Assembly: GCA_009746045.1 (NCBI GenBank)
Contig: RPFO01000082.1
Coordinates: forward strand, 263,093-327,092
Reading direction: 5' to 3'
Length of the DNA: 64,000 nt
Origin: Mesostigma viride
Lineage: Eukaryota; Streptophyta; Mesostigmatophyceae; Mesostigmatales; Mesostigmataceae
A program made the translations under genes and the position numbers. Within the stretch, counting starts at the first letter, position 1. Each line of letters starts with the position of its first letter. The notes beneath the pieces are model-generated. The model had not been told where the DNA came from. It made no database searches and was given only the letters and a program-made list of their open reading frames with translations. Shown here piece by piece: positions 37,395 to 48,680 of the stretch.

Positions 37395-37422
37395 GGTGGT
37401 TTTACCGGATTAGGATACATTT
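37395..37422 (+). repeat. Left terminal inverted repeat (28 bp)
   Basis: Identical over 28 bases to the reverse complement of 48653-48680. The inner part, TTAGGATACATTTG, is mirrored by CAAATGTATCCTAA at 37432-37445, giving a 14-bp hairpin with an 8-nt loop at the left end. Confidence 0.95.
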
Positions 37423-37496
37423 GCACAGCTTCAAATGTATCCTAAATGCACCATTGGCAAACATGGTTTCTGGACATGGTCGATATCATTCATATG

Positions 37497-37529
37497 TTTG
37501 GCAAGCATGATATGATCATGCTTGCCAAA
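37497..37529. repeat. Perfect 15-bp palindrome with 3-nt loop, subterminal
   Basis: TTTGGCAAGCATGAT, ATG, then its exact reverse complement. It lies about 100 bp inside the left end of the transposon. Direct copies of GTTGTCTCTTTTCATAT follow at 37533 and 37595. These are candidate transposase-binding or regulatory structures; the rest of 37446-38180 is AT-rich with no gene. Confidence 0.85.
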
Positions 37530-38229
37530 GATGTTGTCTCTTTTCATATTTCACACATATATTATCGGCCTCGGCGTGCCATGCTTCCACGTTTGTTGTC
37601 TCTTTTCATATATTGTAAATATGATCAATAAAATTCCAAACATGACCATGTTGGAGACTTCAAGTGGAGCATCATGATTACTGTTTTCACTATTACGTAA
37701 CCCATGGTTCATGTTAACATGGCATAATGAGCAATCCTATTGACCCCATGACTAATGGTGAAGTTAATAAAGTTACATCGTGGCACGTCACTATAGCATC
37801 AAGTTGCATCATTGTGCATAAAGTAGTTTAGCACTGAGTTGGCATGCCAACACCAGGTACACTAAATAAATTAAAACCAGAATTGATAAACAACCCAGTA
37901 TCCAAATACAGTATCCATATATATGCAGGTCGTACTACAGGTACAGCCACGGCTGCCACGCGGCTTCTGCAGCGATCACGCTCTTTCTCCTAGACAATTG
38001 CTCTACTGGTCCCTACAGGTCGGTCGACTTGGACCATGATGCGTCAAGAACCGTTAATTGACCGACTTAAACAAGATGTTTGTCTACATGCAGCTGTCTG
38101 CACCTAACTAACGCGAAACCGCGTGCTACCAAATATAGCGGGAAATGCATGAGTAACACATGTCAACGCACAACCGGTGGAAATCACGCGATACCAACCG
38201 CGGCAACAGTGGTGTGAACATAGCGGGCA

Positions 38230-38585
38230 CTGCCATGCAAAAAAGCACCAGCAGCGGCATCAGTAGCAAATTGTAGTAGCGGAACAATAGCCACTACATC
38301 AATGCAACAACACATCAGCCCAGCAACACAGCAGCAGCATGACCGTAGCACAGCAGCAGCACAACTGTAGCTCAGCAGCACGGCCGTAATGCAGCAGTGC
38401 ATCAACACAGCAGCACGGCAGCAGCACGACAGCAATACATCAGCGGCACGGCAGCAATGCAGCAACACATCAGCACAACAGCACAACAGCAGCACGGCAG
38501 CAATGCAGCAACAGTAGCATGGCAGCACAGCAGCAGCAGCAGCAGCAGCAGCACATGAGCAGCTCAATGACAACAACCGCTGCTC
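38230..38585. repeat. Degenerate CAG-rich triplet region
   Basis: Interspersed CAGCAGCAC/AACAGCAGC triplets just downstream of the transposase stop, probably its 3' non-coding region. Confidence 0.7.
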
Positions 38586-45310: not shown

Positions 45311-45461
45311 CGTATCTTTGATACATTGCATCATTTGCATGCCTTGGAGCTGCACGTCTTCAAGCAGTGTCACCCAGTTCCCGCTTGATTCAAATGCACT
45401 TCGCGCTTGAATTCGTGACTTCGCTCAAGGTGGAAGGTGATGGGCACTAGCCACGGGAACT

Positions 45462-48291
45462 ATGCCCGATGCTGATAGCCGAATCGATGACATGGACGAA
45501 TTGAGTGATTTGTGTTATGCCGGGGACGATTGTAGAAAATGGGTGCTAGGAAAGAAACCTGGTGCCATGAAAGTAGATTTTTTGGCCGGTGCAAACCACC
45601 AATGCGCCGGCCGATGTGGCAAGGTCCTGCACGGCATCTGTACGCATATTTTCAGGCACGCAGACGACGGTGACGGCACGGAATGGCAATGCTCTGACTG
45701 CGGCGGCCCTCCACGATGCCAGCCGTGCGCCACGCTCGAGCAGCCAGGGCACACTAGCAACATTAAGCCCACGGAGCCTTCCACTATCAGCCCAGAGTGC
45801 CCGGATAATTCGTTTCGCACGCCCGTCACCGAGGATGACCTGAATTTCGATGATGATGTCGGTTGTGATGATGAAGCTGCAATGGCAGAGGATGACTTCC
45901 ATCATGATGGGGCTGCAAATGCGACAAACGAGAAAGATTCCGCGATGTCTCCTCAGCGTCCTGCCGACGAGCATGGTCATTCAAACCCGGGTTCGGGGCT
46001 GGACGCCACTAAGGAGGCTCTGTTCTCTTCCCCTCTACCTGAGGCCGGCGTTCCTGAAAAGCGGGACGATGGCACGCCGGTCCCTACTGCAAGGTCTTTT
46101 AGCCGCAGTGGACCGATGGCACTGTCTGTCGTGGAAATTTCTGGCTGGGATACCCTCGGGCTGGTGGTGGGGGGCCTCATCATCGACAAACAGCTGCAAG
46201 CGGTGCTGGTCGCCCAAACGACCTACACAACAAAGAAAACATTAAAATCGGCATACACAAATGCGGCACGGGGGAGATCCTCTACCATCAAGATGACAGA
46301 TGTGGTGTGCATGGTCGTCGATCGTGACCCTGCCACTGGGCACATCCCCGGATTCAAGGTAGTTGACACATTTCCGGAGAGTGCGCGAAACGAGCGTATT
46401 GAGCGCACTCTCGCCTGGGCCCAGTCGCACCAAGGTGAGCTGGTGTCCCAGATGACATGGGACTTCCTCGCTGAGGTCCCATGCATCTTGACAACAGGAT
46501 TTCCTAGGGACCCCGCCCTTGCCTTGTATTCAGGTCCTGCTGCAGTGGCGTGGTCTCCGGCGCCTAGCCGGGGGATGCGAGTGCGTGCCCCCCCGCCCAC
46601 AGTGAAGCCCCCAGAGGCAGCCACGCCTTTGGTGGACGTCACCAACGCACAACAGCGACCCAAGCGGAACAGCAAAGCCAAGTCCTCCCAGCCGGCAGAG
46701 AAACGCCGGCAGCCAGAGCGCACCCAGCCAGAGCGTACCCAGCCGCTGCCGCCGCCGACCCCCGTACTGGTGGGCGTGGAACAGACGATGAGAGAGATGC
46801 AACGAGCTATGGAGAACCAAAGCAAGAAGGTTGAAGAGCTTGGTTTGCAGCTGCGTCAAGAGGTGCAGAAACAAGTGGTCCAGCTGGAGCAGCAACTGCA
46901 GCAGCAGCAGCAGCAACTGCAGCAGCAACAGCAGCAGCAGCAGCAGCAGCAGCAGCAGCAGCAGCAGCAGCAGCAGCAGCAGCAGCAGCAGCAGCAGCAG
47001 CAGCAGCAGCAGCAGCAGCAGCAGCAGCAGCAGCAGCAGCAGCAGCAGCAGCAGCAGCAGCAGCAGCAGCAGCAGTTCCCGCAGCAGCAGCAGCAGTTCC
47101 CGCAGCAGCAGCAGCAGTTCCCGCAGCAGCAGCAGCAGTTCCCGCAGCAGCAGCAGCAGTTCCCGCAGCAGCAGCAGCAGTTCCCGCAGCAGCAGCAGCA
47201 GTTCCCGCAGCAGCAGCAGCAGTTCCCGCAGCAGCAGCAGCAGTTCCCGCAGCAGCAGCAGCAGTTCCCGCAGCAGCAGCAGCAGTTCCCGCAGCAGCAG
47301 CAGCAGTTCCCGCAGCAGCAGCAGCAGTTCCCGCAGCAGCAGCAGCAGTTCCCGCAGCAGCAGCAGCAGTTCCCGCAGCAGCAGCAGCAGTTCCCGCAGC
47401 AGCAGCAGCAGTTCCCGCAGCAGCAGCAGCAGTTCCCGCAGCAGCAGCAGCAGTTCCCGCAGCAGCAGCAGCAGCAGTTCCCGCAGCAGCAGCAGCAGTT
47501 CCCGCAGGCATCGTCGGCAGTGCTTCATCTACAGCTGGCGTCACCGGCAACACAGCAGTTCCCGCAGGCATCGTCGGGAGCACTTCAGTTACAGCTGGCG
47601 TCACCAGCAGCGCTTCAGTTCCCGCAGGCAGCGTCGGCAATGTGGCAGATTCCACAGGCATGGTCGGCACTGCAGCAGTTTTCGCAGGGACCGTCGGCAG
47701 CAGAGCAGTTCCCGCAGGGATCATCGGTGGTGCAGCAGTTCTTTGTGAGTCATTCGTGTAGTGTTGAGTGGGTGGGGTGGGTGGGTGGGGTGGGTGGGTG
47801 GGGTGGGTGGGTGGGGTGGGGGGTGGGGTGGGGGGTGGGTGGGGGGTGGGGGGGTGGGGGTGGGGGGGATGGGGGGGTTGACTGTGTGACTGCGTGGCTG
47901 CTTGGCTGGAAAGGAGGGTGCGTGGCTGCGTGGCTGCGCTGCTGCGTGGCTGCGTGGCTGCGTGGCTGCGTGGCTGGCTGGCTGGGGGGGGTGCCGGGTG
48001 CGTGGATGCGTGGATGTGTGGCTGGGTGGGTGCGTCACTGCGTGGCTGGCTGGCTTTGTGGCTGCGTGGGCGGCTGGATGGCCGGGTCAGCGTGGCTGCG
48101 TGTTCAATGGGATGCTAATATGTTGTTGCCTTTGGATGCCACAATTCATGGATTCTTTTGTTCACATGCAGGTGCTGCCGTCTTCCCCATCGACGTCGTC
48201 AAGACCGATGTCGCCAAGAAGGATGATGCAATCACTCTCGGCCATGTTTAACTCATGTGGGCCTTCATGGCCACACGGGAAATATGATTGA
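45462..48291 (+). CDS. Zinc-finger / polyglutamine accessory protein of the transposon
   Basis: Starts at ATG 45462 (MPDADSRIDDMDELSDLCYAG). An N-terminal Cys/His cluster (CAGRCGKVLHGICTHIFRH, then CSDCGGPPRCQPC, residues about 45-95) looks like a PHD- or RING-like treble-clef. An acidic Ser/Pro stretch follows, then a unique domain about residues 215-360 (VVEISGWDTLGLVVGGLIID) of unknown fold, a basic stretch, a pure polyQ tract of more than 50 residues and about 24 copies of FPQQQQQ. A donor at 47745 (GTGAGT) and acceptor at 48171 make an intron over a TGGG/GCGTGGCT-rich repeat and give a last exon 48172-48291; unspliced reading would instead stop at 48251. It is divergently paired with the transposase gene, suggesting a DNA-binding or regulatory partner. 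Family not recognised. Confidence 0.68.
46897..47510. repeat. CAG tract and FPQQQQQ coding repeat
   Basis: About 165 bp of nearly pure CAG, then about 24 copies of an 18-bp unit TTCCCGCAGCAGCAGCAG (one copy has an extra CAG). Frames on the other strand (poly-Leu, poly-Ala, poly-Ser) are artefacts. Confidence 0.95.
47755..48110. repeat. TGGG and GCGTGGCT repeats in probable intron
   Basis: A G-rich strand of GGTGGG/GGGT repeats, then GCGTGGCT units. They lie between the donor at 47745 and acceptor at 48171 of the polyQ gene. Confidence 0.8.
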
Positions 48292-48652
48292 ATCAGTTCT
48301 TTGACACTGAGTTGGCACTAGACGCAACACCTTTGATGCACATGAGTGCAGGGCGCATGTGTGGAAACCATGCAACCATGGCGATCCCTCAAAAAGTTTG
48401 GTTATGTAATAAGTGAGACAATTATTCCGGACGTATGATGGCCCAACGTCCTGTAAGGTTGAGTTGTCTTATTCAATTGGCATATGTTGTCTTATTGATG
48501 TTGTCTCATTGCCTTAATGGGTCAATTGTCTTAGTTTATATCATGTATATCTTGGGAAACTCATTGCTTCAATAAAATGCATGTTAGGCGCAATCAACCC
48601 CCTCAAACACATCTGAAAACTGCACAGTGCATCAAATGTATCCTAAACAAAA
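48292..48652. other. Non-coding right end of the transposon
   Basis: AT-rich with GTTGTCTTATT-type repeats and an AATAAA at about 48572, a plausible polyadenylation signal for the polyQ gene close to the element's right end. Confidence 0.5.
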
Positions 48653-48680
48653 AAATGTATCCTAATCCGGTAAAACCACC
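48653..48680 (-). repeat. Right terminal inverted repeat (28 bp)
   Basis: Reverse complement of 37395-37422. Here the ATGTATCCTAA motif is repeated directly (48636-48646 and 48655-48665) rather than as a hairpin, so the two ends are asymmetric. Confidence 0.95.

Follow-up and report, generated by a model that had tools for sequence, protein, structure and literature searches.

EnSpm/CACTA elements have the termini CACTA/CACTG, duplicate 2-3 bp of the target site, carry subterminal repeats and encode a transposase and a second protein. PIF/Harbinger elements also have two genes, and their target duplication is the 3-bp TWA. Zator makes a 3-bp duplication and AcademX one of 3 or 4 bp (PMC10045372, excerpt); Zisupton and Dileera, members of the Kyakuja-Dileera-Zisupton (KDZ) group, make 8-bp duplications (PMC12730594, excerpt), and KDZ transposases are large, with relatives in green algae (PMC9297572, excerpt). 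Here we describe an 11.3-kb element of Mesostigma viride, found at positions 37394-48681 of a stretch of 64,000 nucleotides (contig RPFO01000082.1, positions 263,093 to 327,092; C557:263093-327092 in our numbering), which we call the window. Its ends are exactly defined and flanked by a 3-bp target duplication; empty sites exist, many of its copies are nearly identical, and it carries two divergent genes. It is very probably an autonomous-looking cut-and-paste class II DNA transposon with terminal inverted repeats (TIRs), whose transposase is a protein with the domain DUF7869. It fits the defining features of none of the named superfamilies tested, the comparison being by Pfam matches and described features.

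An inverted-repeat search gave a perfect TIR of 29 bp (GGGTGGTTTTACCGG...) at 37394-37422 on the plus strand and at 48653-48681 on the minus strand, and direct reading gave the triplet CAA immediately outside, at 37391-37393 and 48682-48684. The initial annotation had described a perfect 28-bp TIR with a 5-bp duplication, CCAAG, on both sides, and had taken the borders as fixed to the base. The inverted repeat is indeed present at both ends, but its 28-mer lacks the outermost base, so that the real borders lie one base further out at each end. Likewise, CCAAG does stand at 37390-37394 and 48681-48685, but the duplication proper is CAA: the string reads C + CAA + G on both sides because one C and one G are derived from the element, the others being chance neighbours.

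The placement of the borders comes from the other copies. Our left-end query began at 37395, without the outermost G of the element; still, all 35 left ends examined, from 40 left ends found, start with GGG, and all 27 right ends examined begin with G (19 with GGG, 8 with GAG). As the same base recurs across unrelated targets, the outermost G is the element's own. When the ends are set by the 29-bp repeat, the three flanking bases agree in 20 of 27 end pairs, representing 19 distinct sites (C426 and C1967 have common flanks); among 696 control comparisons of non-partner flanks, 22 agreed. A 5-bp frame fits three of the 27 pairs, the window among them, and misfits the other 24. In C1604, one copy of the element is inserted inside another. 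The outer copy, itself flanked by TTA/TTA, reads to element position 8887 and restarts at 8885, so that TCC is duplicated and nothing more; in the window copy this site is uninterrupted (46278-46280). The flanks of the ends, the constant G and the TCC self-insertion rule out a 28-bp TIR with a 5-bp duplication, which retains practically no probability. Duplicated triplets include cat, ctc, aag, gcc, tcc, gaa, and ctg, the base following the duplication at the 19 sites is C (10), G (8) or T (1), and no strict target motif is seen at these sites. The inverted repeats sit precisely at the two termini and the target duplication has a fixed length, which makes the element a TIR transposon.

The element interrupts a reverse-transcriptase frame, and here the initial annotation, which had proposed an intact TIR transposon caught within a reverse-transcriptase gene, is borne out. 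Removal of the element and one duplication joins the two halves in the same frame, yielding an open stretch of 402 codons. The left part (36722-37393, plus strand) has a weak RVT_1 match (E 0.00028, below the cut-off) and its frame runs across the join; the right part (48682-49215, plus strand) has a YLDD box just past the junction. When the joined flanks were searched for in the genome (439.9 Mb in 2,243 contigs, the scope of all our genome searches), each of the 40 places scored, out of 826 first-look candidates, matched all 220 bases without a break, nine of them with the top score. These empty sites are compatible with either duplication length, and the length was therefore settled by the other copies. 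The interrupted retroelement (36722-37393 and 48682-50741) is itself highly repeated, as seen from the number of candidates for its 220-base piece.

Other copies of the element, whose existence had been anticipated, are numerous. All 40 scored places, out of 422 first-look candidates with the window among them, match the left 301 bp at 100% (40 further hits of this search were a short palindromic self-match), and the right 300 bp are 100% identical over 299-300 bases, also in 40 of 40 scored places (283 candidates). Allowing at most two mismatches, we found 527 TIR ends genome-wide, 258 forward and 269 reverse, with none for a reversed control pattern. Over a longest alignment of about 7 kb, seven of the 20 fetched stretches differ by 0-3 substitutions (L009 and L024, 0; L016 and L023, 1; L011 and L022, 2; L017, 3). 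Three others (L014, L020, and L025) have 25-27 substitutions over about 6.2 kb, L019 is clearly older, at 96% identity, and the remaining stretches gave shorter aligned pieces with 0-7 substitutions. Judging by this near-identity, the element has multiplied very recently in M. viride. With copies that look so young, it may be mobile even now in cultures of this alga, which stands at the base of the streptophytes.

The spacing of ends was analyzed on 100 end places, listed by exact matches only, which leaves out pairs whose right end begins with GAG. Among these, 36 convergent neighbouring pairs are less than 30 kb apart: 22 at 8.8-10.0 kb, eight at 10.5-11.3 kb, and six longer. The 8.8-10.0-kb class, which has the same TIR, may represent a related family or deletion derivatives. 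In addition, C1945:352141-373536 contains two left ends 10.2 kb apart, with flanks identical over 1,499 compared bases and one right end seen; this is either a local duplication or an assembly artefact.

DUF7869 is a protein domain without an assigned function. The gene carrying it occupies 38591-43761 on the minus strand and consists of an N-terminal part, the DUF7869 core, a repeat array and a C-terminal domain, as delimited by open reading frames, Pfam, and alignment of both parts to a single relative. The DUF7869 (PF25273) match covers 41995-42453 on the minus strand, with an E-value of 2.4e-16 and 60.3 bits against a gathering cut-off of 26, and the domain is well above the cut-off also in the relative, P0001. 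Pfam gives no transposase family save this uncharacterised one, in agreement with the earlier view that no superfamily could be named. The closest protein found, P0001 (source label eukprot:jgi/Mesvir1/12432), is encoded in this same genome, where its residues 43-759 match at 99-100% in 13 places. The first part of the window protein aligns to it at 34% over 465 columns, and the C-terminal part (40153 down to 38591), which has no Pfam match, aligns to the C-terminal part of P0001 at 28% over 319 columns. Together, the core and the C-terminal domain cover nearly the whole of P0001. Because P0001 is matched by both, the two parts can be assigned to a single transposase. They are separated by an array of tandem repeats with 88% GC (40154-41910, minus strand, 1757 bp), delimited by tandem-repeat and frame analysis. 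In P0001, for which the genome encodes residues 43-759 without interruption, and in the C224 family, the domains are instead joined directly, with no GC-rich array.

The conserved residues are mostly Asp, His and Cys. C316, C319, H345, D380, D383, C413, D475, E479, H504, H510, H512, D514, and D516 are invariant in the window protein, P0001, and the C224 family, as are E225, D242, D266, and E273 upstream. D475 is encoded at 42337-42339, D514/D516 at 42214-42222, and D380, just outside the DUF7869 match, at 42622-42624, all on the minus strand. The succession D380 ... QLDGGSENRN ... GHxHxDxDQ could be a DDE/D core, and these aspartates are the candidate catalytic residues.

A homologue search with the core region returned one match, P0001, among 3,780 candidates, and a search with the full transposase scored 8,000 candidates without a match at E <= 0.001. 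None of 94 viral-contig stretches that fit a pattern encodes a relative, phage records gave no match, and a sequence search of PDB gave a single, meaningless match (E 0.43). Within the genome, a search with P0001 (59 of 1,041 candidates scored) revealed several near-identical sets with 35-39% identity to P0001, namely C887 (10 places), C224 (15), C667 (4), and C1624 (6-7). The existence of several divergent sets, each near-identical within itself, shows that DUF7869 families have multiplied repeatedly in Mesostigma. One copy of a P0001-type element carries a 1.8-kb insert with imperfect inverted ends beginning with ATTGTC (L079:5812-7586, C2056), which is absent from another copy.

The second gene (45462-48251, plus strand; delimited from its open reading frame, Pfam, and repeats) encodes a protein with a Cys/His-rich start, for which Pfam reports a PHD match below threshold (E 0.023), followed by Q-rich and FPQQQQQ repeats (about 46888-47507). 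The content of the element is therefore as initially described, a giant transposase and a Cys/His-rich, polyQ-type protein. The two genes diverge from a 1.7-kb stretch containing a minisatellite of 6.9 copies of a 149-bp unit (44273-45303), found by tandem-repeat analysis. A motif search showed that AAATGTATCCTAA occurs in four copies in the element, all near its ends: an inverted pair at 37410-37445, with the minus-strand copy at 37410 and the plus-strand copy at 37433, and two direct plus-strand copies at 48634-48665 (starting at 48634 and 48653). These repeats may be transposase binding sites.

A mechanism can be proposed from these features. The DUF7869 core would be a DDE/D-type nuclease, with D380, D475, and D514/D516 as candidate catalytic residues and with the conserved H510/H512 and C-x2-C pair. 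It would recognise the 29-bp TIRs and the subterminal AAATGTATCCTAA repeats, excise the element at the TIR ends and join these ends to target strands staggered by 3 bp; repair of the gaps by the host would then produce the 3-bp duplication. The second protein, with its weakly PHD-like finger and Q-rich repeats, is taken as an accessory DNA- or chromatin-binding factor.

Several observations weigh against this reading of the element. Seven of the 27 end pairs (C1256, C1756, C1857, C1933, C742, C121, and C799) have no 3-bp match. For some of them, the flanks themselves offer an explanation, as long repeats this similar may recombine or cause an assembly to connect flanks that do not belong together. 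The left flank of C742 equals that of C1402 (53 of 53 compared bases) and 20 bases of its right flank equal those of C998; the left flank of C799 equals that of C1945 (20 bases); and C121 and its partner C1933 have in common the 33 bases of left flank adjoining the element, of 57 compared. C1256, C1756, and C1857 have no such explanation, although the ends of C1857, a pair spanning 27 kb, may stem from different copies. Structure prediction gives the proposed fold no support: AlphaFold models built from two-sequence input are poor, with a mean predicted local distance difference test score of 37 and 48, and a Foldseek search with the second model, itself uninformative, found nothing at E <= 0.001. 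The window copy carries a net 2-base frame shift in the GC-rich array, the frame being kept in four of 12 copies. Finally, the 3-bp duplication alone is compatible also with replicative transfer, and no excision has been seen.

With a duplication of 3 bp instead of 5 bp, EnSpm/CACTA, Harbinger, Zator, and AcademX come into question as the home of the element. A divergent member of EnSpm/CACTA would account for the 3-bp duplication, the motif repeats near both ends and the presence of two genes. The likeness does not extend to the termini, which are GGGTGG (or GAGTGG) in the ends examined and not CACTA/CACTG, nor to the transposase: no CACTA model is among the Pfam matches of the core and its relative, examined at E <= 10, a threshold at which the filters mostly drop weak matches above about 0.1. 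Moreover, the EnSpm/CACTA lineage is described as having C-x2-C and H-x3-4-H motifs between the second Asp and the last acidic residue (PMC12730594, excerpt), and between D475 and D516 we see neither these motifs nor an invariant Cys. The duplication length agrees while the termini and the transposase model do not, and the defining features tested do not place the element in EnSpm/CACTA; divergent membership is very unlikely. PIF/Harbinger likewise has 3-bp duplications and two genes, but the duplications here are not restricted to TWA, which is seen in two of 20 only (taa and tta both counted), which speaks against that superfamily. Zator has the 3-bp duplication in common with the element; no ISAzo13-like transposase was matched, Zator having been compared by description and Pfam only. 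AcademX agrees in duplication length but not in its XPG-type nuclease, of which the Pfam scan of the element's proteins gave no match, and the element is not assigned to it. KDZ transposases are large, like the one here; however, the duplication of 8 bp differs from 3 bp and the transposase domain PF18758 was not matched, and KDZ was rejected too. Our literature search found no paper naming DUF7869, nor any on this element among papers on Mesostigma transposases or new superfamilies, and the repeats section of the M. viride genome paper (PMC6947507, excerpt) has no mention of such an element. An undescribed family is plausible, set apart from the named superfamilies by Pfam matches and descriptions only.

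Two further alternatives concern the proteins. The GC-rich array could be a GT-AG intron, outside the protein: its borders as delimited are GT and AG, splicing it out would leave the exons in the same frame, and few copies retain the frame. Its length in 12 copies ranges from 1,437 to 1,757 bases and is a multiple of three in four of them, the window copy not being one of the four. On the other hand, the period is divisible by three in 12 of 13 tandem-repeat rows, the other being a weak 17-base row, and the frame entered from the core is stop-free in 12 of 12 copies, although GC-rich DNA has few stops anyway. The differences between copies are mostly in runs of G5/G6 and in losses of repeat units (24, 162, and 314 bases); L070 differs further by a 2-base insertion and a single substitution. 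The published assembly of M. viride NIES-296 (441.8 Mb, 2,363 scaffolds) was built from PacBio RSII and Illumina reads (PMC6947507, excerpt), which makes homopolymer errors in the G runs plausible. Finally, residues 477-501 are tandemly repeated in frame in two members of the P0001 family, C1518:49421-51127 and C1107:4554255-4561811, whose frames are free of stops over 4,243 and 2,726 codons, respectively. Hence an intron is somewhat unlikely, and we favour a translated Gly/Ala/Ser-rich linker: the array is probably part of the protein, most likely changing in length by whole codons, with homopolymer errors or true mutations obscuring its frame. As for the second gene, it might be host-derived or other captured sequence with no role in transposition. 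No homologue was found outside this genome at E <= 0.01 among 8,000 candidates, and the subthreshold PHD match is all that Pfam yields. Yet 45 places, counting the window, encode residues 1-465 with 100% identity; many lie within copies with ends found, and all 45 frames, of 570-937 codons, stay open through the variable repeats; 19 further full-length places are 96-99% identical (91 of 2,312 candidates scored). Capture of a passenger gene is thus unlikely, and an accessory protein of the transposon remains our preferred assignment.

In broader terms, DUF7869 may be the catalytic core of an unnamed TIR superfamily of eukaryotes with 3-bp duplications, of which several divergent families have multiplied very recently in Mesostigma; in at least two of these the transposase would have grown longer through tandem repeats, kept in frame, in the same linker between domains. 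We put this forward tentatively. The domain gains a concrete role to test, that of a transposase core with exact substrates: the 29-bp TIR, the subterminal repeats, and the 3-bp duplication. Growth of the repeat linker inside the transposase, in turn, can be traced copy by copy.

In the window as a whole, no Rfam family matches at gathering score, and a scan for bacterial promoters and terminators, with models not suited to an alga, gave nothing above shuffled sequences. Simple-repeat frames with long RE and DGRT runs at 4569-5189 and 35858-36325 read as open reading frames. A tandem array of protein-like repeats (GGRDRELPLFWWWRAG...) at 22921-24036 contains several open frames, on both strands.

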